From positions 1 to 26,749 of IMG/VR virus record IMGVR_UViG_3300042516_000743: DNA of 26,749 nt; one strand, written 5' to 3'. Every line of letters starts with the position of its first letter. Within the stretch, counting starts at the first letter, position 1. This DNA is from a virus. The notes below the pieces were generated by a model, which did no database searches, was not told the DNA's origin, and was given only the letters and a program-made list of their open reading frames with translations. Positions 890 to 20,980 of the stretch are shown one piece after another. Position numbers and translations under genes: made by a program.

Positions 890-1183
890 ATGCAGTGCCC
901 TAAATGCAGTGCTGGCAGCAGCGTGTCCACAACAGTCCAATTAGATAAAGAAGTTAAGCGTCATCGCAAGTGCAAAGCATGTGGCAGTAATTTCGTCACC
1001 ATCGAATCAGTTGTTGAAAGTGTGCCCGTAGGTAGACCTGCTAAACCGAAGCCACTCCCCGACCCTAGGGGCATATACAAACCCGCTGATGTCGTGACCT
1101 TAAAGATGCAGAAGGTTGAAGTAAGGCGCAAGAATGAAGACAGAGTATCAAGCTATTACATTGAGGATGATTATGATTATTGA
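890..1183 (+). CDS. NrdR-like zinc-ribbon protein without ATP-cone
   Basis: A 97-residue protein with a four-cysteine zinc ribbon at residues 3-31: C3-x2-C6 and C28-x2-C31. The spacing and flanks (MQCPKC ... RHRKCKACGSNFVTIE) closely follow the zinc ribbon of NrdR, the repressor of ribonucleotide reductase genes, including the basic RxRKC turn and the F-x-T-x-E strand. NrdR is about 150 residues with a C-terminal ATP-cone; here the rest is a proline-rich linker and a short charged tail ending in acidic/tyrosine residues, so the ATP-cone is absent. A small nucleic-acid-binding protein is likely; a link to nucleotide metabolism is only inferred. RBS CCGAGG lies just after the terminator. Confidence 0.75.
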   Translation: MQCPKCSAGSSVSTTVQLDKEVKRHRKCKACGSNFVTIESVVESVPVGRPAKPKPLPDPRGIYKPADVVTLKMQKVEVRRKNEDRVSSYYIEDDYDY

Positions 1184-1376
1184 GAGCGTCAGTTTCAAGC
1201 GTGTGTGGGAATGGATTAATAACGTGTGGGCTAAGTCTCTCATTGCTGTGGTCTTGTTCTTCATTGGCATGAGCATAGGGCAGATACAAGCTGAGAGCCG
1301 CATCGCATCCGACTGCAAGTTCGCTGGCGCGTTTCGTGTAGAGATTCAGGCATACAACTGTCAGAGGAGGATTTGA
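1173..1376 (+). CDS. Small single-pass membrane protein with two extracytoplasmic cysteines
   Basis: A 67-residue protein. I chose ATG 1173 because GAGG (1163-1166) sits 6 bases upstream; ATG 1167 and the upstream ATG 1134 are alternatives. An amphipathic start (SFKRVWEWINNVW) is followed by one hydrophobic segment at about residues 22-38 (SLIAVVLFFIGMSIG). A C-terminal tail follows with C48 and C63 that could form a disulfide if periplasmic. The tail (DCKFAGAFRVEIQAYNC) resembles a small membrane-protein family common in phages. It overlaps the zinc-ribbon gene by 11 bases and the next gene by one base (TGATG). Function unknown; membrane modification or superinfection exclusion is possible. 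Confidence 0.75.
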   Translation: MIIESVSFKRVWEWINNVWAKSLIAVVLFFIGMSIGQIQAESRIASDCKFAGAFRVEIQAYNCQRRI

Positions 1377-1552: not shown

Positions 1553-2026
1553 ATGACATCATTCCGCGAACAGTGGCAGAAGACAATCAAAGGTGACGGC
1601 GGCCACTGCCCGACCTGCGACAGGTGGGGAAAGATTTATGGCCGCAACATCAACAAGACAATGGCTACGTCACTGCTGTGGCTGACTCAAGCGCCATCAG
1701 ATAAAGATGGCTGGGTAGATGTTCCACTGAAAGCCCCTCGCTGGCTAGTGCGCTCGAATCAGTTGCCGACTTTAAAGTGGTGGGGATTGGTTGAGCGCAA
1801 GCCCGTAGATGCCAAGTCAAAGAACAAGCACTCGGGTATCTGGCGCGTGACAGACAAGGGCAAAGACTTTTCTCTCGGCACGGCGTCAATCCCTAAGACA
1901 GTCTTTACTTACAACGACACGGTGCAGTTTGTTAGTCCAGAGCAGGTACAAATGAAAGACTGCTTCAAGGATTACTTTGACTACAAAGAGTTGATGAACT
2001 CTTACTATCCGGGGGCGATCAAATGA
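1553..2026 (+). CDS. Phage protein with CPxC knuckle and winged-helix-like domain
   Basis: A 157-residue protein. Residues 18-22 (HCPTC) form a half zinc knuckle next to DRWGKIY, with no obvious second cysteine pair nearby. Residues 33-105 look like a winged helix: a helix (INKTMATSLLWLTQA), a segment with proline and basic residues (KAPRWLVRSNQLPTLKWWGLVE) and a wing ending IWRVTDKGKDF, which is typical of wHTH proteins. The C-terminal third is acidic and aromatic (CFKDYFDYKELMNSYYPG). It probably binds DNA, but neither target nor partner is visible. RBS AAAGGG is modest. The last four bases overlap the start of the next gene (ATGA). Confidence 0.75.
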   Translation: MTSFREQWQKTIKGDGGHCPTCDRWGKIYGRNINKTMATSLLWLTQAPSDKDGWVDVPLKAPRWLVRSNQLPTLKWWGLVERKPVDAKSKNKHSGIWRVTDKGKDFSLGTASIPKTVFTYNDTVQFVSPEQVQMKDCFKDYFDYKELMNSYYPGAIK

Positions 2027-2214
2027 AACCGCTTGAAGCCGCAGCCGTTGGGTTCTATGCTGTCATTGCGATGTTCACGCTGTACTTCATTGTGCTAGTC
2101 AACGTGAAGCCGCCTCCGGTAAGACACAATATCTGCACAGTAGCGGAGATCAGTCCGGACGTAACACCTGAAGAGCACAAGCGTTGCCGCGAGATACGGG
2201 GACACAAGCTGTGA
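2023..2214 (+). CDS. Small single-pass membrane protein, paralogue A
   Basis: A 63-residue protein, coupled to the preceding gene by a 4-base ATGA overlap. It has one membrane segment at about residues 7-27 (AAVGFYAVIAMFTLYFIVLV). A short extracytoplasmic tail follows with C38 and C55 and the motif VAEISPD, ending CREIRGHKL. The gene at 3302-3508 encodes a clear paralogue with the same layout: MKPxE start, FY..IA.FT in the membrane segment, a PP pair, two cysteines 17 residues apart, EISPD, and RGHKL at the end. Two conserved cysteines suggest a disulfide in the periplasm. Function unknown. Confidence 0.8.
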   Translation: MKPLEAAAVGFYAVIAMFTLYFIVLVNVKPPPVRHNICTVAEISPDVTPEEHKRCREIRGHKL

Positions 2215-2507
2215 ACAAGGTTAATCAGGACACGTACGCAAGGGTGATGCAGATGTTATTAGCCCGTCCTGTAACAGCGTATGACATTGCTGACGAGACC
2301 GGACTACACATAGTGACAGCGCAGAGGCTGATGCGCACGTTCAAGCAGTACGAGATCATCCATGTGTGTAATTGGCGACAGGACTCGAAGGGTAGGGACA
2401 CCACTCCTGTGTACGAGATCGGCTTTAAGAAAGATAAACCCCGTCGCGCTATGACCCAAGCGCAAAGGCAAGCGAGATGCAGAGCCAAGAAGAAAGGGAA
2501 GGTATGA
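2211..2507 (+). CDS. Winged helix-turn-helix DNA-binding protein
   Basis: A 98-residue protein, most likely starting at GTG 2211, whose GTGA overlaps the previous stop codon; a TTG at 2184 is an in-frame alternative with no RBS. Residues 10-75 form a wHTH: a helix (YARVMQMLLARPVTAYDIA), then the turn-recognition helix (ETGLHIVTAQRLMRTFKQY), then a wing (WRQDSKGRDTTPVYEIGF). The tail (residues 79-98) is very basic (RRAMTQAQRQARCRAKKK), which would add nonspecific DNA affinity. Likely a phage or host transcription regulator. It overlaps the next gene by 4 bases (ATGA). Confidence 0.8.
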   Translation: MNKVNQDTYARVMQMLLARPVTAYDIADETGLHIVTAQRLMRTFKQYEIIHVCNWRQDSKGRDTTPVYEIGFKKDKPRRAMTQAQRQARCRAKKKGKV

Positions 2508-2854
2508 ACAGAGATGACATTATCCGCATAGCGAAAGCCGTAGGGTTGGGTGAAGTTGATAAGGACGGAGACATTTGGTGCAGCGATGGGTTTTACACCG
2601 AGGAGATAGATAGCTTTGCTCAATTTGCTTATGACGCAGGACGTAAAGCGGAGCGCAAGAAAATGGAATTGGATGGAATTCATACTTGCCACAATAATTG
2701 CCAGCGACCTATATGTGTTGCAGTTCGTGAAGCCGTAGCAGCAGAGCGCGAGGCGTGCGCGAAGGTGTGCGATGTGTTAGCTGATAAACATACGTTTGAA
2801 GGCGGCTACGCAAACGAGTGCGCTATTGCTATCCGCGAAAGGGGTGCGCCATGA
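2504..2854 (+). CDS. Conserved-type small phage protein with C-rich centre
   Basis: A 116-residue protein. ATG 2504 is preferred over ATG 2477 because AAAGGGAAGG lies just upstream and the ATGA overlaps the previous stop codon. It begins MNRDDIIRIAKAVGL, a layout common in phages of betaproteobacteria. It has a helix with YDAGRKAERKK, a cysteine/histidine cluster (HTCHNNCQRPIC) that could bind a metal, and the AAEREACAKVCD helix seen in many phage proteins. The C-terminus (GGYANECAIAIRERG) is also typical of that group. The family is recognised only by recurring motifs; function unknown. Confidence 0.75.
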   Translation: MNRDDIIRIAKAVGLGEVDKDGDIWCSDGFYTEEIDSFAQFAYDAGRKAERKKMELDGIHTCHNNCQRPICVAVREAVAAEREACAKVCDVLADKHTFEGGYANECAIAIRERGAP

Positions 2855-2875
2855 CTGACTTTATAAAGGTAGAAG

Positions 2876-3115
2876 ATGCCTAAGCCACCGAAGCCCGACC
2901 ACGAATGGGATGCAGTGATCAACGGCTACCGCGTCGGTGTGATGCGCGTCATCAATAGTATTAACAAGGGAGAGGTAGAAGAGATCGAGCTTGAGAAGCT
3001 GCATAACTTCGCGCAGTTCGCACTGGCCCTGATGCAGATAAGTGGACGGGAGAAGTGGGAACGGGCGAAGCTGAACGCAGAAATGATGATGTACTTTAAG
3101 GAGAAAGATAAATGA
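2876..3115 (+). CDS. Small helical phage protein, unknown function
   Basis: A 79-residue protein starting at ATG 2876 after a 21-base gap (RBS region AAAGGTAGAAG). After a proline-rich start (MPKPPKPDHEWD) it is almost all helix. The middle is acidic (GEVEEIELEKL) and is followed by HNFAQFALALMQISGREKWERAKLNAEMMMYF. Its last four bases overlap the next ATG (ATGA). No membrane segment, metal site or known motif. Real by spacing and coupling; function not recognised. Confidence 0.65.
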   Translation: MPKPPKPDHEWDAVINGYRVGVMRVINSINKGEVEEIELEKLHNFAQFALALMQISGREKWERAKLNAEMMMYFKEKDK

Positions 3116-3315
3116 AAGCATTTCCAAACATGTCAGGCCAGCAAGGCATGGACTTGCGCGATTACTTTGCAGCGAAAGCGATGCAAGGTTTGTTGTCTAA
3201 CCCAAAGCTGCAAGCGCAAATCCTAAACACAGGCGGCGCGTGGGGCAGTTGGGTTCCTGAGTCTGCTTATGGTTGGGCAGACGTAATGATGAAAGCAAGA
3301 AATGAAACCACCTGA
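3112..3315 (+). CDS. Conserved phage/prophage small protein (DLRDYFAAKAMQGLL family)
   Basis: A 67-residue protein with a good RBS (AAGGAG, 3099-3104) and an ATGA overlap with the previous gene. The core MDLRDYFAAKAMQGLL followed by a short variable loop and a final helix (YGWADVMMKARNE) is the layout of a very common phage and prophage protein: GMxLRDxFAxxAxxGLL ... AYxxADAMxxAR. Its role is unknown in every member I know of. It overlaps the following membrane-protein gene by 14 bases. Confidence 0.8.
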   Translation: MKAFPNMSGQQGMDLRDYFAAKAMQGLLSNPKLQAQILNTGGAWGSWVPESAYGWADVMMKARNETT

Positions 3316-3508
3316 GATCGTTGCCGTCGCATTTTATATAACTATCGCACTGTTCACTGTCGTGTTCGGGTACAAGGCGGTAAATACGAACCCACCGCTG
3401 CCTTGTGGTGTATCAGAGATTAGCCCTGACATAAGCACCGAGGTACGCGAGAAGTGCCGTCAGATGCGAGAGCAGAGAGCGAGAGAACATAGGGGGCATA
3501 AGTTATGA
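3302..3508 (+). CDS. Small single-pass membrane protein, paralogue B
   Basis: A 68-residue paralogue of the protein at 2023-2214. Both have MKPxE, one membrane segment (IVAVAFYITIALFTVVFGY, residues 6-24), a double proline, two cysteines 17 residues apart (C35, C52), the EISPD motif and a basic tail ending RGHKL. This copy has a 6-residue insertion (QRAREH) before the last RGHKL. The start overlaps the previous gene by 14 bases and the stop overlaps the next start (ATGA). Divergence is large, so the duplication is old or the copies came from different phages. Confidence 0.8.
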   Translation: MKPPEIVAVAFYITIALFTVVFGYKAVNTNPPLPCGVSEISPDISTEVREKCRQMREQRAREHRGHKL

Positions 3509-3609
3509 ACGACATTATATTGGCTTTGCTGGGTATCCCTATGGTGATACTTGCATGGTTTGGGGTTGGTCTATGTATTTATGCGATATGGAAAGAGGTT
3601 AAAAAATGA
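3505..3609 (+). CDS. Very small membrane protein, 34 aa
   Basis: ATG 3505 overlaps the stop of the previous gene (ATGA) and its own TGA (3607-3609) overlaps the next ATG at 3606, so it sits exactly in frame with the coupled string. The 34 residues are nearly all one hydrophobic helix (DIILALLGIPMVILAWFGVG, then LCIYAIW) followed by a basic end (KEVKK). This orientation would place the C-terminus in the cytoplasm. It could be a holin-like or accessory membrane peptide working with paralogue B, but no function can be assigned from sequence. Confidence 0.7.
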   Translation: MNDIILALLGIPMVILAWFGVGLCIYAIWKEVKK

Positions 3610-11374: not shown

Positions 11375-14254
11375 ATGATAAAACAATTTTACGAGAAAGC
11401 ATTGCCTTCGCAGGGCGTCTACTGTGTGGCAAAGATAGACAACAAACGCACCACACAGAGATTTGCGGAGTCCATAGATGATGTTGAAAATCTTGCAAGA
11501 CAGTTTAGCTTGGAAAAAGCTAATGTCTACGTCGCCCTTGCATCCTTCGACGGTTATAGTCGCAAGGCAGAGGACGCGCAATTCCTACGTTCATTCTTCA
11601 TTGACCTTGATGTTGGGGCAGGGAAAGCAGAACTCAGAAGAGGATATGCTACTCAAGGAGATGCGCATATTGCACTACAGGCTTTCCTCCCAAGAGTTGA
11701 TTTACCTCCCCCAGTTATCGTCGATTCAGGCACGGGCGTACACGCCTACTGGTTCTTTGATCGAGACATCCCCGCCGCTGAGTGGAAGCCATACGCCGAG
11801 AAGTTCAAGACGCTATGCCTTGAGAATGACTTATTCATTGATCCGGTTGTTACAGCGGACGTGGCGCGGATTATGCGCTGTCCTGAGACATTTAATTACA
11901 AGACTACGCCACCTAGCAAGTGCGAAGTAATCAGCGACGAACTCCCCGTCTATTCGTTCGATGAGTTCAAAGAGTTCTTAGGGATAGTAGAAGAGTCGCC
12001 CGCAGAAATCTTAAAGAAGTTGCCCAAGGGTCTGGACGATGACACTAAGGCGTTGATGAAGCTCGACAATCAGGAGACCTCCTTTGAAAAAATCGCTATC
12101 AGAAGTCTTGAGGGTGATGGATGTGAACAGATTAAGTGGGCGATTGAACGATCTTCAACATTACCCGAACCCGTCTGGACAGCCGTGTTATCCATTGCAC
12201 AGCATTGTACAGACCGCGATGAGTCTATCCACAGACTATCGGAAGATTATCCCGGATACTCTTTTGAAGACACGGAACGAAAGGCAACATTACGGCAAGG
12301 AAAACCTTATTCCTGCACAGTCTTCGATAATGAAAACCCCGGTATATGTGACACCTGCAAGTACAAAGGTAAGTTTACCAACCCGCTTGCGCTCGGACGA
12401 ATCATCAAGATCGCCCAAGCCCCTAAAGAGGACGCAGTTCGGGAGTACGAGAATCCCGAAGATATTCCAGCAAACGTAATCCCTGACCACCCACAGGCGT
12501 TGTTCCCCTATTTCAGGGGCGAGACAGGCGGCATTTACTATCAGCCAGCGCCCAAGGTAGACAAGAAAGGTAAAAAGACAGAGTTCGACCCGCAGTTAAT
12601 TTACCCACACGAGTTTTTCCCGATACGCCGGATGTACAGCAAGATAGATGGCGAGATTTTAATGATGCGCCTTCTGTTGCCGAAAGACCCGCCGCGTGAC
12701 TTTATGATCACTACCAGAAGCCTCAACGCAACTGACGAGTTCAAGAAGGCAATTGGCTTTATGGGAGTGGTGGGTGGCGTAGAAAAATTACAACACATCA
12801 TGAGGTACGTAATGAAATGGGGACACTACTTGCAGACTCAGTCCGAAGCAGAACTGATGAACATGCAGATGGGCTGGACAGAACCAGTAAGTGATACAGA
12901 GCGGTTGGGCCGTTCGTATGTTCTCGGTAATGACTTAATTAAGTCAGACGGCAAGATTGTACTAGCGCCTGCATCACCTGCAATTCAGAAGATTGCAAAG
13001 TACTTTAAACCAAAGGGTAGCTTTGAGGTGTGGCGTGAATGCGCTCAGCAGTTGAACCGTCCATCGATGGAGATGCACGCGTTTGGAACCTTGATCGGGC
13101 TTGGCTCACCGCTCATGCCCCTGACATCCACACCGGGCGCTGTCGTTAGTTATACAGGTAAATCAGGCAACGGTAAGACCGGTGCGCTGTATGCAAACTT
13201 GAGTGTGTGGAGTGATCCGGTTGGTGTTTCGGTTTTTGATTCTACAGATAACGGATTGAACCAGCGGTACGTAACTTTGAAGAACGCATCGTTCGGTGTC
13301 GATGAAGCACATGAACGTAAGATAGAAGAACTTAGCAAGATGGTTCACGCTATCTCGCAGGGTAAGGCCAAGATCAGGATGCAGGGGTCGATCAACGCTG
13401 AGCGAGAGCATGAACTTTTAGCGTCGGCGATTGCCATGATGACGAGTAACGTGCCGCTGCTGGACATGATTATGTCCAAGAACTCTATGGCTACAGGACA
13501 AATGGCACGTATGATTGAGTTTCTCATAATGAAACCACAGCTATTGTTTGATGAGCCAGACTTTGGCCCCAAGGTCTTTGACTTGTTCAAGTACAACTAC
13601 GGTCATGCAGGGCGTAAGATTATCCAAGCGTACTTTATTCACGGTGAGGTCGCGCTACAGCAGATGGTAAAAGAGTGGATTGCCCGCTTCAAGCGGGACT
13701 TTGGCAACGACGCGATTTACCGCTTCTACGAGAACATCGTCGGGGTGACTATGACAAGCGGTATGGTAGCCAACGAGTTCGGCATCATTGACTATGACCT
13801 AGAGCGTATCTATTCCAAGGTCTGTAGCGATATGATCATCATCCGGGACAAAGTGGTGAACCTTGGCGAGACGGATTACTCGTCGTTGGTCGGTGACTTC
13901 ATCAATAAATACTACACGGGCTTCTTGGGCATCAACGACGGCAAGGTCACGATGGAGCCGAGAACGAGTCTGGTTGGCAGGATTGACCTAGCGACGGGGC
14001 TTGTCACCATATCGACCACCGAGTTCAAGAAGTATCTGATTGAGAAGAGCGTCAGTTCACGGGAATTCGAGCAGAACATGCGGGAGAAGAAAATACTGAT
14101 CGATGTGAAAAAATCCCGCTTGGACGCTGGCTGGAAGCAAGCTCTGAGCATCCTTGACAAAAACATGAATGTGAACACCTATGTCTTTGCGACCCAAATC
14201 CCGGATTCTTTCTTTACCCCCGATGGACATGGAGAAGCTGACGGAGGAACCTGA
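11375..14254 (+). CDS. Primase-helicase fusion (AEP-like primase plus DUF927-like ATPase)
   Basis: A 959-residue bifunctional replication protein. Residues 50-180 look like an archaeo-eukaryotic (RepB/PrimPol-type) primase: FFIDLDVG with D77-x-D79, SGTGVHAYWFF with H123, and a later DPVVTADVARIMRCP. Residues 314-328 contain C314, C325, C328 (NPGICDTCKY), a zinc site typical between the two halves. The C-terminal ATPase resembles DUF927 helicases: Walker A GKSGNGKTG (595-603), a STDNGL motif (623-628), and Walker B FGVDEAHE (D643, E644), then KAKIRMQ. It should unwind DNA and make primers for the family A polymerase. The start at ATG 11375 has a weak RBS and directly follows a terminator, suggesting tight control. 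Confidence 0.85.
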   Translation: MIKQFYEKALPSQGVYCVAKIDNKRTTQRFAESIDDVENLARQFSLEKANVYVALASFDGYSRKAEDAQFLRSFFIDLDVGAGKAELRRGYATQGDAHIALQAFLPRVDLPPPVIVDSGTGVHAYWFFDRDIPAAEWKPYAEKFKTLCLENDLFIDPVVTADVARIMRCPETFNYKTTPPSKCEVISDELPVYSFDEFKEFLGIVEESPAEILKKLPKGLDDDTKALMKLDNQETSFEKIAIRSLEGDGCEQIKWAIERSSTLPEPVWTAVLSIAQHCTDRDESIHRLSEDYPGYSFEDTERKATLRQGKPYSCTVFDNENPGICDTCKYKGKFTNPLALGRIIKIAQAPKEDAVREYENPEDIPANVIPDHPQALFPYFRGETGGIYYQPAPKVDKKGKKTEFDPQLIYPHEFFPIRRMYSKIDGEILMMRLLLPKDPPRDFMITTRSLNATDEFKKAIGFMGVVGGVEKLQHIMRYVMKWGHYLQTQSEAELMNMQMGWTEPVSDTERLGRSYVLGNDLIKSDGKIVLAPASPAIQKIAKYFKPKGSFEVWRECAQQLNRPSMEMHAFGTLIGLGSPLMPLTSTPGAVVSYTGKSGNGKTGALYANLSVWSDPVGVSVFDSTDNGLNQRYVTLKNASFGVDEAHERKIEELSKMVHAISQGKAKIRMQGSINAEREHELLASAIAMMTSNVPLLDMIMSKNSMATGQMARMIEFLIMKPQLLFDEPDFGPKVFDLFKYNYGHAGRKIIQAYFIHGEVALQQMVKEWIARFKRDFGNDAIYRFYENIVGVTMTSGMVANEFGIIDYDLERIYSKVCSDMIIIRDKVVNLGETDYSSLVGDFINKYYTGFLGINDGKVTMEPRTSLVGRIDLATGLVTISTTEFKKYLIEKSVSSREFEQNMREKKILIDVKKSRLDAGWKQALSILDKNMNVNTYVFATQIPDSFFTPDGHGEADGGT

Positions 14255-14432
14255 GTGGATTTTCCCGTATGACTACATGGCGGTTGGGGAGAGTTTCTTT
14301 ATCCCCACGCTGCGCCCTGCCCAGATGACCTACGTGGCGGACGTTGCCGCCAAGAAATCCCGCATCAAGGTAAAGATTTATACCTGTGAGCGGGAGGGAC
14401 ATCTGGGAATTAGGGTGTGGCGTACAGCTTAA
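14223..14432 (+). CDS. Small conserved phage protein ending in RVWR
   Basis: About 69 residues from ATG 14223; an in-frame ATG 14181 would add 14 residues inside the primase gene and has no RBS, and ATG 14229 is a further option. The sequence YDYMAVGESFFIPTLRP, a helix (VADVAAKKSRI), a strand (KVKIYTCE) and GHLGIRVWR at the end recall a frequent small phage protein (MxVGxSFFVP ... GVRVWR). It resembles a compact strand-helix-strand fold. It overlaps the primase gene by about 30 bases. Its stop codon (14430-14432) overlaps the stop of the giant minus-strand gene. Function unknown. Confidence 0.75.
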   Translation: MDMEKLTEEPEWIFPYDYMAVGESFFIPTLRPAQMTYVADVAAKKSRIKVKIYTCEREGHLGIRVWRTA

Positions 14433-17400
14433 AACTCATACCCCATAGCCGTGTACATATCGACAAGCTGTTTCTTAAGGAGTGTCTGCTCTGCTCTATT
14501 CATCTCCAGCAAAGCGCGTTTGGTTGCGTAGTCATAGTCCGTGTTGATTCGGATTTCCTGCCCTTCACTACGTAACTTTTTAAGCTCCCCATTAGCGTCC
14601 TTGTTGTATTGAACAGCCAGAAATTCGTCTAATGGATTGTCGGCTAAGTACTCGTAGTACGCTGTGATGTTAGCCTTTTCTAGTTCATTTAACATGTCGC
14701 TGCGGGCTTTCAAGTCCTTCTCAATCTTGTTCCACATACGCGCGTCGTAGTCAGAGCGCGTTCCGACAAAGCCGCTAAAGAGTAGGCTGTCCTGCTTTAA
14801 TCTCTCCATCGTTGAACGGTCGCCCTCAGTCCCGATAGCAAACAGATTCCAAGCCGCGACCCCGGCTTTAGACAAAGCGTCCACGTATGCGGAGGCCAAG
14901 AAGTGCATCTCGTTAGGCCCGAACCTCGCCCCAAAGTTTTCAAACATAAACGCAGAAGCGTCCTTGAACAGCTTGGGCACGTTGTCGCCGCCTGTGTAAA
15001 CACTGCCGTTCGGGCCTTGACGGTTGTTGTAAATCTCTTGCCCAAGAGAGTTGTAGTTCATGGCGAACTCAACAAGGGGTCTAGCCGGTGCGGGCATCAG
15101 ACTATCAACGAAGAACTCAAGCGGGTTGTCTTTTATACTGCCTTTGGAAATAGGTACCGGCAAGAACGAGTCCATGAGGATAGGCACGGAGTTCGCCATA
15201 ACATCTGTGAACTTGGTATCAGACACCCCAAGAGAGGCGAACTGAGCGCCGAGCGCGGCAAACGCGCCCATACCGAAACCCCAAGGGATGGTGATGATGT
15301 CATTGATCCCGTCGCCCACAAAGAACCGAGCGTCCCGCATCCACCGGCTCATGTCATCTGTGGCTACCCGGTTGCGCCCGAAGTCATCCTGCCCAGCCAT
15401 GAGATACGACAGATAGTACACAGCGACCCCGACCCCGCTGATGACGGCCACGGTATTTTTGCCGCGTGTGGCTTGTTCAATAAACTTCTTGTTAAACTCT
15501 TCCCGATTACCTTTGTCTTTCAATTCTTTGGGCAACTCGCTCCATGCCCGGTCTGCCGCCTTCTTGTACCCACCAAAGACAGACGATATAGCAGGGGCCA
15601 GCGGCTCAATAACTCGCACCGCACCTGTGGCTGACGCGCTAAAGAACATGAACCATGAGCCTAACTCTCTAGCGTTCAAGCCCTTCTCTTCGAAGTTAGC
15701 CAGACCCTTGGCAAAAGCAGCGGCGGGTTTGTTGGCAGCTTTCTCTGCCTCCGCACGGCTCATACCTTTTGCCATCAGCTTACCCATCTCTTCAGCCTTG
15801 CGGATTTTGAACGCAGCGGCACGGGTAGTAAATTCAAAGCCCGCTTGATATATGTCGAAGAACTTGCCGATGGCTTCTTTTGTCTTAAGCACCGTGCCTT
15901 GAGGGCCGCGTTGGTTCTTATCTAGCAGATCACTGAACTGTCCTTTAGCGGTAAAGCTGCTGACGTAGGCGATGTCACCGCCGTTTTGCAGGTAGTCCAC
16001 TAGGTCTTTAACGTAGCCAGATTTATCACTAGCTATTAGGGCTTTAATTTTTGGGTTTTTAGTTGGGTCAGCACCGCCTTCATAAAAAGCTTTAGCCACC
16101 AGTCCAGATTTCACAAACCCGTTTTTTACTACCCCGGAGGTCATGTAGTTCGCAATCGCTCCTACATAGTTAGCCGCAGCGCCGGGGGACATATCAACAC
16201 TGATATTGAACGCGTTAGCCAACATGTCGCGCACAAAGTTCTTGGGTGCGAACGCTACGTTAAAGCGAGTGTGCATCTGCCCCATGCGGCTGGTGATGTA
16301 TTGCAGGGTGTCTAGCGCCCAGTTTTCATTCTTGAACGTCTTGCGAAGCGAGTTACGTAGTTTCTCGTCTTTGACTGAGATAACAGCTACCTCACCGTTG
16401 GGCATGTAGTGAAGGAAGACGTTCTGCTGATTCATCAGTTTGTATAGCTCAGAGTCTTCTTTTAACTTGTAGCGATCTGCAAACGGCACTATCTTCTCGA
16501 TCTTGCCATTGATTAACCCTGTTTTTACAAGATTGTATAGAGTCTTGGACACGTCCTTGCGGCCAGAACGCGCAGCGGCAATCGATGCGTCAGCCATCAT
16601 ACTGAGGATGGGATTATCAGGCAGGGTGTAGCGCCCCTCCTGCGTAAATTCTTTCTGCTGTAACTCTTTCCCAAGACGCTGCTCACCGCCGTAGAACAAG
16701 TCCGCGTCTTCTTCTTTCTCAGGTTTGCCTTTGTATGTGACGTAGTTCTCGTAGCCGTAGAAATTAACAAGGTTATCAACCTGCGGCGACCAGTAGTTGG
16801 CCTGCTTGTTAAGCATGATAGTTACATCAGATAGCTCGCGCACCTCTTTTAAGATGGCGTCCATTATCTTCTTTTGTTCTGGGTTTTTATTGAAGTTATC
16901 AATATGGTTCTTAACGTCTGCGGGGGTAAGACCGCCCAGCACAGTATATTTATCGCTGCTTACGTCATGCTGTGGGACAAATTTATTATCCGGACCGGGG
17001 TCAAGGTTCTTCTTGTCAGCGACAATATCCTCAAGCAGTTTGCGATATGCCTTGGCTAGGTCTTTGGATGTCATGCCCAAGCTCTCAGCTTTGGCTTCGA
17101 AGCCACCTGAAGTTAAATCTGCGATGATGTTGTCACGCGCTGTGGCGGGGGGAATCATTTTCCCGAACCAATTTATATTTTTCGCCATGTCGTCCGAACG
17201 CAACGGCACGTTCTTCAGGTATTTAACCTTCCGCACTTCAGACTCGTGCATGACTTCACCGTACGCTGCCAAGTGCTGCATTGCTTCGTCCAGCGTCAGC
17301 CCTGTCTTCTTGACCATATCGACCAACATCTCGTTGATCTTGTTTAGATGGACGTTGACGTAAGTGTTTTGCAGATTACGGAAGTTACCAGCACTAAGTG

Positions 17401-20400
17401 ATATGGCGTCGTACAGATTGTTCGCGGTGGCTTCATCCTCCAATACAAGCAAGCCCGCTCGATTTAGCTGACGCTGAAGGTCTTTTATCCAATACTGCTC
17501 ATTCTGATACTTGACCGCAGCTTCCTTGGCGCGTTTTGTATAGCTGCCGGTAAACCACGAGAAGATGGACGACAGGAAGCCTTTGGGTTTATCAGGAATC
17601 TTTTGCCCAGCGATAAACTCTTCTGTGGACTTGCCTGTGTATTCCCCCGCCTTCTTCGGCTCTTTGGGTTCAGCCATGAACGAGACGCCCTTGGCCTTCA
17701 TACCTTTTACCGGCCCGGTAATCATCGTCTGGATATTTTCCAGAACTTGGCTCGACGCGCTGTCGCCCTTGATGCCGAGAAGCTGCATCACACGGGTTGC
17801 GAACTCACGCAGCGCGTTGGGTACTTTAACGACAGTTGTAGCCGGTGGAATCTTAGCCATCTCAGCCACGAACTCTGAATCAGAAAACGACTGAGCGATG
17901 AACTCTTTAAGGGTGCCGATGTCGTACTTCTTACCCAGCTTTGACTTGACGTGTTTGTGCAGCTTGTTGAGATTATCGAGTGCGATCTTCTGGATCGGGG
18001 TCAAGCTCTGTGGATTGTCCACCGCACGGTCAGTAATGAAGTGGGCGTACTCGTGCAGTACAACAGTATCAAGCGATACGTCACGCGGCGCGGTAGGGTC
18101 AACCGTGATTGTCTCAGTTGCAGGGTCATACATGGCAGGGCGGTTATCCGTCACCTTGCCAACAACCACGGTCGGCTTCATGCCAAACTGACCAAGAGTC
18201 GCTTCAATACGAGTCGCAAACAGCTTGGTAGCCGGGTCGGTGTAGCCGGTCTTAATAGCCCGCAGGATTGTGTCGGAGTTACCAGAGCGCAGCGCCTCTA
18301 CTGTCTGACGCTCGATTACGTTTTCGCTTTCCTTCTTCTCTTCAATCTTTCTTGTCGTAACAGGCCGCGCTTTGCCTACCTTAGCAGTGGCAACCGTCGT
18401 GCCAGCGGTGGCTTTCTTACGCGCTTCGCGGATGTCGGAAGCACTCTTCTTGCCTAGCTTGGCTACGCCTTTAATCTCTGCTTCAAGAGTATCTTTGCGC
18501 TTGGTTTCAACAGCTTTCTGTTGCGCCTCAGTCAGTGACTTGACGAACGCTTCCCGCACCTGCTTTTTCTTCGTAGCGCGTGGCTTAATTTTACTTTCGT
18601 CGATAGCTTTACTAACAGCGGTTTGACGCTCAGTCGGAGTCATACGAGCCAAAATATCATAGACCGTAACGTCGTCTGGCTTGAGCGATTGGATGCCTAG
18701 CTTCTCGTTCTCTCTGAACTTAGCCTGATTGGCTGCGTTCTCAGCCTTTATCTGATCAGCATAAGTTGCTTTGAGGTTGTCCAGCGCTGAGTCAAACTCA
18801 TCAAACGCTGTCTCGGCACCGGCGTGGTCAATAGCTTCGTTTATGTCTTTAGGCGGCGCGGCGCGTGTTTTGACATCTGCGGCAACGAACGGTTTGTGCG
18901 CTTCGGTAAGCCCTTCACCAAGCGTTATAGGCTCCTTCTTTACTTTCTTTGGAGAAAGTAATTTTATTTTTCTTCCTTCTATTGCTTCTATTGCGGGCGC
19001 GGGTTCCTTCTTCTCTACCTTGGGAGCGGGTTCCTTCTTCTCTACCTTGGGAGCGGGCGCTATTTTACTGGCAAGTTCCGCATCAAGTTCAGCTTGCAGA
19101 GCGGCTTCTTCATCTACTGCGGGTGCGGCTGCTTTCGCTTGTCCTTCTTCTTTTGTTTGCTTGGTTTCAGCGGCTTGAGTGACACTGGGTTTCTCCTCCG
19201 TTATAACTTCTTCAGGTGTTGGTGTTGTTTCTTGCTGTAAGCTTGTAATAGGCACAGAGCGAAGAACTTCGCCCATTTCATCTTTTATACTTATTTCTGC
19301 ACGATCACCTGAAGTGCTTAGTACCGTGACCGGAGTGCTACCTCCAAGCTCATTTAAAATTGCAGGACCCGGTACTAATGCAGGACGCTGATCCGTCGCT
19401 GGAGCAATAATTGATTGAGCACCCCCTCCAGAATCATCCAGTCTAGAGTTGATAGGTGTTGTAGATTCTCCGGAGGCGACTGCCAATTCTCGTGGAGCGC
19501 CAGCAGCGCCAGACTGATCTCCTGCGGCGTTAATTCCAGCAGATTGTGCGGCACTGGCTCGGATACGTTCGACATTTTCGGCTCCCAGTCTTTTTTCAGC
19601 TTTACCTAGTGCTTCTGTTTTTCTTTTTACTTCTATCGGTGTAAGTTTTTTACCATCCGAATCCACGCCAAGCGCAAGTTCAGCGCCGTATCTAATTACT
19701 TTTTGCTCATCTGTCTCATTTTTTACTTTTGCAGGAGGCAACTCGGGTTGAGCGCGCGCAGCGTCCATCTGCGCGTCTACAGCGGCAAGCGGGTCTGCTT
19801 CCGGGGCTGGGGCTGGTGGGTTTATAGCAGCAGCTATCTGTTCAGGCGTGGCGATACCGAACGGCAGGTTAGCGGGAGGCTTGGCGGCTTGCTCTGCTTG
19901 CGCTTGAATCGCTTGGGCATCAGGAACAATAGCGGCGGCAGTCTCTTGGGCTTGCGCCAACGCTTGCTGCGCTTCCATATCTTTCTGGGCGGCGTCGGCT
20001 GCTAATTGGTTACGCGCTTGAAGGGCACCAATACCTGCACCCGGAATAAAGCCAAGAGCCGCACCCATCGTGGCAGCACCCGCCACACCCTTCATCGGGT
20101 CAATCCGTGGGTCGTACGTCTGAGCGGCTGAGCGCCCAGAATACTCGGTGACACCTTCTTCCAACGCTTCTTGAGCGGCTTCAGACAGACCTGTTTTAAT
20201 CGCGCCGCCTAACGTAGAAGACGCGGCTTTACCGCCCACACCAGCCAAGAACCGTTCGACACCGAACGCGCCAGTTGCACCACCAATCAAGGCAGGGACG
20301 AACGACGCACGGCGAGCCGCAGTAGTTGCAGCTTCTTCTTTTAGTTTCTCTAGCGATATGCCTTTATCTACTTGGCTACGAATGTAGTCGTTCTGTAAAA

Positions 20401-20980
20401 GAATCTCGTCTGGTGTATCCATCACCATGCGATAGGCTGAACCACCAGCGTCACCACCTGCCATCATGGCGTTTGTTACAACACCGGCTCCCAGACCTGC
20501 GCGGCCCGCAGCTTTCTCAGTGAGTTTTAATAACTGAGCGGCTTTTACAGAGCCTTTAATAGCCAGACCGGGGCCAAGAAAAGAGCCAACCGCTTGACCG
20601 GCTGCTTGCAGTGGGTTTTCAGCGATGTACTTGGCAACGGCAGCGACTTCTTCCCCACCTGTTTGAGCGACTTCCAAATCCTTCTGGAATTTTTCCCGCC
20701 CAGCTTTGACCATGTCGCTTTGTAAATTTTCTGTTGTCTTAGTAAATTTATCAATAGCTTTTGAGAAAGAGTTACCCGGCGACACGTAATCAGCCGCTGC
20801 CTCTATACCGCCCGCGAACGAGTTGGCAATTGCTATAGCAGTATCACTAGCCACCCTGAAAACATTCCTAGACTCGGGCGCTTTCTTTGGCTCTTCTTTA
20901 GGCGTATTCCATTTCCGCTCCCATGGGGCAGAAGGCTCTTTAGTAGCAGTAGACCAATTACGTTCCCAAGGTGCAGCCAT
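14429..20980 (-). CDS. Giant polyvalent virion protein with zincin motif and LPD38-like region
   Basis: A 2183-residue protein, ATG at 20980 with RBS AGGAG. The first residues repeat APWERxW (3-9 and 18-24). Residues about 60-330 are Ala/Gly-rich with several hydrophobic helices (GVVTNAMMAGG, FVPALIGGATGAFG, MGAALGFIPGAGIG), as in ejected pore-forming proteins. Residues about 330-760 are low-complexity, with a 9-residue repeat (APKVEKKEP). A metallopeptidase-like motif HEYAH lies at 976-980, with E1026 a possible third ligand. Helical, charged segments follow. Residues about 1570-1780 (RFNVAFAPKNFVRDMLANAF) resemble LPD38, a domain of polyvalent phage proteins. Two hydrophobic segments occur near 1846 and 1890. 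The role is probably DNA ejection plus peptidase effector delivery; inferred. Confidence 0.8.
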   Translation of the reverse strand: MAAPWERNWSTATKEPSAPWERKWNTPKEEPKKAPESRNVFRVASDTAIAIANSFAGGIEAAADYVSPGNSFSKAIDKFTKTTENLQSDMVKAGREKFQKDLEVAQTGGEEVAAVAKYIAENPLQAAGQAVGSFLGPGLAIKGSVKAAQLLKLTEKAAGRAGLGAGVVTNAMMAGGDAGGSAYRMVMDTPDEILLQNDYIRSQVDKGISLEKLKEEAATTAARRASFVPALIGGATGAFGVERFLAGVGGKAASSTLGGAIKTGLSEAAQEALEEGVTEYSGRSAAQTYDPRIDPMKGVAGAATMGAALGFIPGAGIGALQARNQLAADAAQKDMEAQQALAQAQETAAAIVPDAQAIQAQAEQAAKPPANLPFGIATPEQIAAAINPPAPAPEADPLAAVDAQMDAARAQPELPPAKVKNETDEQKVIRYGAELALGVDSDGKKLTPIEVKRKTEALGKAEKRLGAENVERIRASAAQSAGINAAGDQSGAAGAPRELAVASGESTTPINSRLDDSGGGAQSIIAPATDQRPALVPGPAILNELGGSTPVTVLSTSGDRAEISIKDEMGEVLRSVPITSLQQETTPTPEEVITEEKPSVTQAAETKQTKEEGQAKAAAPAVDEEAALQAELDAELASKIAPAPKVEKKEPAPKVEKKEPAPAIEAIEGRKIKLLSPKKVKKEPITLGEGLTEAHKPFVAADVKTRAAPPKDINEAIDHAGAETAFDEFDSALDNLKATYADQIKAENAANQAKFRENEKLGIQSLKPDDVTVYDILARMTPTERQTAVSKAIDESKIKPRATKKKQVREAFVKSLTEAQQKAVETKRKDTLEAEIKGVAKLGKKSASDIREARKKATAGTTVATAKVGKARPVTTRKIEEKKESENVIERQTVEALRSGNSDTILRAIKTGYTDPATKLFATRIEATLGQFGMKPTVVVGKVTDNRPAMYDPATETITVDPTAPRDVSLDTVVLHEYAHFITDRAVDNPQSLTPIQKIALDNLNKLHKHVKSKLGKKYDIGTLKEFIAQSFSDSEFVAEMAKIPPATTVVKVPNALREFATRVMQLLGIKGDSASSQVLENIQTMITGPVKGMKAKGVSFMAEPKEPKKAGEYTGKSTEEFIAGQKIPDKPKGFLSSIFSWFTGSYTKRAKEAAVKYQNEQYWIKDLQRQLNRAGLLVLEDEATANNLYDAISLSAGNFRNLQNTYVNVHLNKINEMLVDMVKKTGLTLDEAMQHLAAYGEVMHESEVRKVKYLKNVPLRSDDMAKNINWFGKMIPPATARDNIIADLTSGGFEAKAESLGMTSKDLAKAYRKLLEDIVADKKNLDPGPDNKFVPQHDVSSDKYTVLGGLTPADVKNHIDNFNKNPEQKKIMDAILKEVRELSDVTIMLNKQANYWSPQVDNLVNFYGYENYVTYKGKPEKEEDADLFYGGEQRLGKELQQKEFTQEGRYTLPDNPILSMMADASIAAARSGRKDVSKTLYNLVKTGLINGKIEKIVPFADRYKLKEDSELYKLMNQQNVFLHYMPNGEVAVISVKDEKLRNSLRKTFKNENWALDTLQYITSRMGQMHTRFNVAFAPKNFVRDMLANAFNISVDMSPGAAANYVGAIANYMTSGVVKNGFVKSGLVAKAFYEGGADPTKNPKIKALIASDKSGYVKDLVDYLQNGGDIAYVSSFTAKGQFSDLLDKNQRGPQGTVLKTKEAIGKFFDIYQAGFEFTTRAAAFKIRKAEEMGKLMAKGMSRAEAEKAANKPAAAFAKGLANFEEKGLNARELGSWFMFFSASATGAVRVIEPLAPAISSVFGGYKKAADRAWSELPKELKDKGNREEFNKKFIEQATRGKNTVAVISGVGVAVYYLSYLMAGQDDFGRNRVATDDMSRWMRDARFFVGDGINDIITIPWGFGMGAFAALGAQFASLGVSDTKFTDVMANSVPILMDSFLPVPISKGSIKDNPLEFFVDSLMPAPARPLVEFAMNYNSLGQEIYNNRQGPNGSVYTGGDNVPKLFKDASAFMFENFGARFGPNEMHFLASAYVDALSKAGVAAWNLFAIGTEGDRSTMERLKQDSLLFSGFVGTRSDYDARMWNKIEKDLKARSDMLNELEKANITAYYEYLADNPLDEFLAVQYNKDANGELKKLRSEGQEIRINTDYDYATKRALLEMNRAEQTLLKKQLVDMYTAMGYEF
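19001..19057 (-). repeat. 27-bp tandem repeat in the giant gene
   Basis: A 27-base unit starting GGGTTCCTTCTTCTCTACC occurs twice exactly (19001-19027 and 19028-19054), plus 3 bases of a third copy. On the minus strand it encodes a repeated Ala-Pro/Lys/Glu-rich nonapeptide (APKVEKKEP) within the disordered linker. Recent slippage is likely, because the copies are identical. Confidence 0.9.

Follow-up and report, generated by a model that had tools for sequence, protein, structure and literature searches.

The window analysed here, a virus record of 26,749 bases, carries two short open reading frames with the same set of motifs, lying 1.3 kb apart in one string of genes. The original prediction regarded these two genes as the outcome of duplication and divergence, perhaps giving a heteromeric assembly with a part in exclusion, lysis timing or envelope change. 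The locus raises two questions, namely whether the two genes form a unit and what their products do.

Both ORFs, hereafter copies A and B, are present on the + strand as predicted (Table 1), and their features can be read directly from the translations. A start of the form MKPxE, a PP, the motif EISPD and a terminal RGHKL are common to both, the membrane segment reads FYAVIAMFT in copy A and FYITIALFT in copy B, and each tail holds a pair of cysteines 17 residues apart (C38 and C55 in copy A, C35 and C52 in copy B). The similarity persists in alignment: BLASTP gives 45% identity (33/73 columns; E 5e-16 for that single comparison), and none of 5000 shuffles of copy B attained the local alignment score of 129, the best of them scoring 58. 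The membrane halves and the tail halves each beat their own shuffles (0/5000 each), and a search of the whole record with copy A returned copy B as the sole other match (E 8.7e-11). Copies A and B are homologous along their length.

Table 1. Copies A and B and the small genes near them in the window.
Feature	Position	Strand	Remark
Small single-pass protein, 67 aa, two Cys in tail	1173..1376	+	weak PHROG 4568 match (unknown function)
ORF, 157 aa, PHROG 2693 (unknown function)	1553..2026	+	4-base overlap of its stop with the copy A start
Copy A, 63 aa, predicted single-pass membrane protein	2023..2214	+	tail C38..EISPD..C55R..RGHKL
Possible winged-helix protein, 98 aa, after copy A	2211..2507	+	GTGA overlap at 2211; weak HTH matches
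ORF, 67 aa, matches C-terminal part of PHROG 2201 (unknown function)	3112..3315	+	14-base overlap with the copy B start
Copy B, 68 aa, same family as copy A, other clade	3302..3508	+	8-residue insertion before RGHKL
Membrane ORF, 34 aa, after copy B	3505..3609	+	ATGA overlap at 3505

Both copies belong to a single unnamed family of small early phage proteins, the plan of which is a membrane helix, a short linker and then CxxAEISPD(x5)RxxCRxxRGHKL. Members were recognised by a membrane helix, a C-x16-CR arrangement enclosing EISPD and a basic, RGHKL-like end, all of which are present in A and B. Iterated profile searches of the fetched loci yielded 88 family ORFs, of which 62 are unique; those of the loci L003–L040 that repeat contigs present again in the IMG/VR set were dropped before counting. 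Setting aside L041, which is cut by a contig end, left a set of 61 sequences. The tail residues C, E, P, D, C and R are identical in all 61; part of the EISPD conservation is built in by the IMG/VR retrieval pattern, [VI]AEISPD[FVI], and the cysteines and the CR lie outside that pattern. Furthermore, the cysteine spacing is 17 in each of the 57 sequences that passed a separate membrane-plus-two-Cys scan, and the histidine of RGHKL is present in 50 of the 61. The membrane part is variable, and the tail is far more uniform across otherwise different phages. Copy A itself departs from its kin at residue 52 (2176–2178 region), which is His in place of the Arg found in 60 of 61 family sequences, including the same-species contig L043.

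The ORFs of this family are coding and under purifying selection. The ratio ω was below 1 in 200 of 201 close pairs, with a median of 0.19, these pairs overlapping and hence not being independent, and the tail was at least as constrained as the membrane part in most of the pairs listed. Between copy B and its nearest kin from another contig, L026, dS was 0.47 and ω 0.03. A divergent member, in which EFNPD replaces EISPD, was observed at 14195–14374 (+) of locus L081; the record, 60 kb long, also has an ordinary copy about 4 kb away, and kin of the divergent form occur in two further contigs.

In IMG/VR, 198 of 323 candidate stretches encode a confirmed relative, and the best 80 of these 198 were analysed. 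Among 50,697 records of named phages, all matches to A and B were noise (E 8 or higher), and of the 28 stretches that a pattern scan picked out in contigs of bacterial and archaeal genomes, none was confirmed. The EISPD family is known here only from uncultured viruses and has no cultured carrier among the 50,697 phage records. For polA, the kin belong to Rhizobium and Pseudomonas phages, with an identity of about 35%.

It had been suggested that no described family has this motif set, and none was found in the libraries searched. Pfam, PHROGs and NCBIfam returned only noise for A and B. Matches to phrog_37130 (E 0.0017, 1 of 15 members), Tudor_2 (E 0.013) and holin_5 (E 0.0046, 2 of 47 members) were likewise judged to be noise. 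A search of the PADLOC defence models with A, B and eight further proteins (E up to 1) detected no family, and the family profile (A1), run at E up to 10 against all PDB chain sequences, had no match. Neither the Rfam nor the tRNA scan of the window found anything. In a literature text search for the letters EISPD, the papers among the matches listed were unrelated by title.

To count copies, 82 records were searched whole, comprising 80 from the IMG/VR relatives and two more. One copy is carried by 78 of these records and two copies by four, a pair count that is a lower bound, because the 82 include many fragments and no record with a completeness rating of 90% or more. Among records of at least 30 kb, 23 of 24 hold one copy and one (G044) holds two. 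It is thus largely a single copy that is conserved in relatives, with the proviso that fragments may hide second copies. The two-copy records are G001 and G002, which belong to the window's own species, G039 (locus L077) and G044 (locus L081, where one copy is the EFNPD form). The same-species contigs L042 and L043 keep both homologous genes.

A tree of the 61 sequences (63 columns kept, with a warning of few columns and long branches) contains a branch, supported at 98/95, that separates A from B and places each nearer to the genes of other phages. Beyond its own species, the rows nearest to A are L044 and L045; those nearest to B are L026, identical over the columns kept, and L072. Forcing A and B into one clade, together with L043 and L026, was rejected (p-AU 0.0199), and forcing the two L077 copies into one clade was not (p-AU 0.09). 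Tree and AU test together reject the predicted lineage-specific duplication of A and B, with moderate strength in view of that warning. Close relatives of the window phage carry one copy each, in varying places. L051, whose polA is 94% identical to that of the window phage, has its copy near the A place, after the counterpart of the gene at 1553 with about 480 bases between them, and this copy groups with B's side of the tree despite its position. In L091 (polA 91%), the copy stands at the B place, after the counterpart of the gene at 3112, and in L059 (polA 92%) a B-type copy lies elsewhere in the same stretch.

An old duplication followed by many losses would also fit this distribution; whether by that route or by gain of a cassette, the A/B pair is not a conserved unit. 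As the early region around the copies shuffles, their pairing resembles the addition of a cassette more than it does an obligate heteromer. That A and B duplicated in place and act jointly as a heteromer is very improbable. Their closeness in one gene string, its retention in L042 and L043 and the two further two-copy records, for one of which (L077) a single clade was not rejected, speak for such joint action; the single copy in 78 of 82 records and the placement of A and B in different clades, with a single clade rejected, speak against it. The homology, the membrane character discussed below and the want of a described family thus stand from the original interpretation, and the path from own-lineage duplication to heteromer does not.

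The predicted neighbours are present, namely the ORF after copy A, whose best Pfam E-values for helix–turn–helix models are 7e-4 and 9e-4, below curated cut-offs, and the small membrane ORF after copy B. The genes flanking the family are shuffled among contigs, and the loci counts that follow include near-duplicate contigs. Relatives of the winged-helix candidate occur at five other loci only, of which two belong to the same species and two have the gene on the opposite strand. Relatives of the 34-aa ORF, a short query whose kin could be missed elsewhere, were found only in two contigs of the same species. With relatives so sparse, neither is a constant partner of the family. The gene at 3112 is recurrent, at 34 loci, all on the same strand as the family and 22 within 1 kb. 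Its 14-base overlap with the following start recurs in several B-type copies. The two-Cys membrane protein at 1173 recurs on the same strand at 18 loci, 14 of them with the two genes within 1 kb.

The window's early region also encodes polA, an SNF2 helicase and a DUF927 protein, and a polA relative lies on the family's strand in 29 of the 30 loci that hold one. An upstream ORF overlaps the start of the family gene in 40 of 61 cases, a gap of at most 40 bases separates the two in 12, and no upstream ORF was found in 9; the start overlaps are as in tight early gene strings. Elsewhere in the window, a late protein of 2183 residues (14429–20980, −) carries an LPD38 domain (Pfam E 1.3e-9) and has no tblastn match in the 50,697 phage records.

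The N-terminal segment of both copies is hydrophobic, and each has the look of a single-pass membrane protein, as had been proposed. AlphaFold2 models of copy A (mean pLDDT 80, pTM 0.42; helices 3–28, 36–39 and 49–59) and copy B (mean pLDDT 82, pTM 0.38; helices 3–28 and 46–66) each consist of a long N-terminal helix and a C-terminal helix, with the tail of copy A reaching a pLDDT of only 56–75 by block. A fold search with the copy A model, at E up to 10, gave 21 viral matches and 12 from the PDB, none of them reaching 0.001; the best of the viral matches was A0A6J5N0C7 (E 0.44), which comes from an uncultured phage and is itself uncharacterised. The balance of net charge favours an N-in/C-out orientation in 40 of the 61 sequences and the reverse in 11, with a tie in 10. 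Raw Lys/Arg counts, which average 1.11 before the helix and 1.56 in the 15 residues after it, reveal no N-in preference, and the whole tail has a net charge of +2.07. Given its basic character and the raw counts, the tail could face the cytoplasm; a periplasmic tail closed by a disulfide is suggested mainly by the invariant cysteine pair.

Among known systems, the NCBIfam model matched by most members was TrbK-alt (TIGR04360, a putative plasmid entry exclusion protein), with 10 of 47 members and a best E of 0.045. None of ten tail-shuffled decoys made from four of the matching members met this model. Copy A scored 13.8 bits, copy B had no match and the best score seen was 14.1 bits, all below the curated cut-off of 33 bits, and of 14 unrelated control genomes, 8 likewise gave matches to the model (E up to 10). 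Profile comparison gave a probability of 8%, equalled by 3 of 199 column shuffles, with only C55 falling on a TrbK-alt cysteine and the pair out of register. Homology to TrbK-alt was not upheld by model scores, profile comparison or column shuffles, and the match is kept as a weak pointer, a likeness of plan. Like the family, TrbK-alt has an N-terminal membrane helix, a linker and two tail cysteines with basic residues around them. However, its cysteines are 13 residues apart rather than 17, it has neither EISPD nor RGHKL, and its conserved Trp and Phe are absent from the family. In seven plasmid records with gene tables, it lies between trbJ and trbL, whereas the family occupies a phage early region.

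Outer-membrane spanin lipoproteins of the Rz1 type carry a lipobox directly before the cysteine that ends their signal sequence. Inspection by eye of the 62 sequences revealed no lipobox, the first tail cysteine following a polar or proline-rich linker. T4 offers two small proteins for comparison. Spackle (gp61.3) is an early, helical periplasmic protein that contains a disulfide and inhibits the tail lysozyme of an incoming phage (PMC7677548); no tail lysozyme was recognised in the window. It shares with the family early expression, small size, helical structure, two cysteines able to form a disulfide and periplasmic action, the last of which would apply to the family by inference; unlike the family, it is cleaved and soluble (75 aa when mature), a bundle of several helices with no membrane anchor (PMC7677548). 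The antiholin RI acts in the periplasm and illustrates how a small periplasmic phage protein can hold back lysis (PMC8385771). It resembles the family as a small phage protein, with periplasmic action such as the family would have, and differs in having a cleaved signal peptide and a soluble domain (PMC8385771). The PDB search with the family profile gave no sequence kinship to Spackle and no sequence match for RI.

Two other small two-Cys proteins in these phages were compared with the family. The PHROG 4568-like protein at 1173 resembles it in having a single helix, a two-Cys tail and a basic end, on the same strand and often within 1 kb, but differs in its motif, DCKFAGAFRVEIQAYNCQRRI, and in a cysteine spacing of 15. 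A shared origin was rejected, as the profile probability was 0.2% and 182 of 200 shuffles did as well. This type (Cys 15 apart, SDCKFAGAFRVEIQAYNCQRRI) has no match in the 50,697 phage records; its members include those at L059, L061, L063, L066, L069, L083, L084, L086, L091, L094, L097 and L104, among others. Furthermore, a secreted two-Cys protein with a signal-peptide-like start and the end VCKTIKVHKKLEG (CKTIKVHKKL) was seen at 20 other loci, for example L007 4086–4268 (−), L048 11363–11584 (−) and L067 3571–3786 (+). Its CKxIKxHKKL recalls the CRxIRGHKL of the family; a shared origin was not accepted (profile probability 4.4%, equalled by 4 of 196 shuffles).

What the family does is most likely to be sought at the envelope of the infected cell. 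The proposal ranked first, tentatively and as one possibility among several, is superinfection exclusion by an early protein of the inner membrane, its periplasmic tail closed by a disulfide. The N-terminal helix would anchor the protein in the inner membrane with the tail in the periplasm, where the two cysteines would form a disulfide closing the short helical tail. Made early in infection, the protein would stop the DNA entry of competing phages by binding to a conserved host entry protein or to a component of the machinery with which the incoming phage injects its DNA. One copy would suffice for each phage; the window phage would carry two because small genes are exchanged as cassettes in its early region, and having a second copy may widen what is excluded. 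The location beside replication genes, on their strand and in tightly overlapping gene strings, is consistent with this proposal, as are the invariant two-Cys tail beside a varying membrane part, ω below 1 nearly throughout, the charge balance of the 40 sequences and the helices modelled in both copies. Spackle is a precedent of the same general kind (PMC7677548), and TrbK-alt is a weak pointer, though one that fails as homology. On the other side, the raw Lys/Arg counts and the basic tail allow a cytoplasmic tail, a region of arms-race specificity seldom shows tail conservation so strong, and the gene has no match in cultured phages (50,697 records).

A more doubtful possibility, placed second, is host takeover, in which the conserved tail would bind and switch off one conserved host envelope or inner-membrane protein, for example in division, secretion or wall synthesis. 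The early location agrees with it, and the uniformity of the tail relative to the membrane helix is what would be expected of an interface with one slowly changing partner, although such conservation could equally serve self-assembly. Exclusion is ranked ahead of takeover, and both ahead of the rest, on the early position, the likely periplasmic tail and the cassette behaviour. It is unlikely that the tail is instead cytoplasmic (N-out, C-in) and reduced, drawing to the membrane a replication factor, a nucleic-acid factor or some other cytoplasmic partner: its net charge of about +2 and the neighbouring genes that act on DNA would suit such a role, but two invariant cysteines lack further conserved metal ligands (the RGHKL His being present in 50 of 61), and the net-charge comparison leans C-out. 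Distinctly unlikely is a part in lysis timing, as an antiholin-like or lysis-inhibition protein on the general plan of RI. A small exported or membrane-held protein with a probably periplasmic tail would fit the example of RI, a periplasmic antiholin (PMC8385771), and 2 of 47 members gave weak holin-model matches (NF037949, best E 0.0046), but the family gene sits among replication genes, no holin or endolysin was recognised in the scanned parts of the window and the PDB profile search was without a match. Returning to exclusion, a bolder and improbable form of it would make the family a new class of phage entry-exclusion proteins, in which clades A and B recognise different targets, copies are gained and lost as cassettes that change the competitors excluded, and a double specificity is carried by the window phage.

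Few phage genes are as poorly understood as those for small early membrane proteins. The family described here is real, widespread among uncultured phages, unnamed and of an ordinary kind, and the pairing in the window is the exception; the finding adds an unnamed family and not a mechanism. As a short, near-invariant tail is common to many uncultured phages, an experiment on one member would probably explain the family, and the rare two-copy phages would allow specificity to be compared within one genome.
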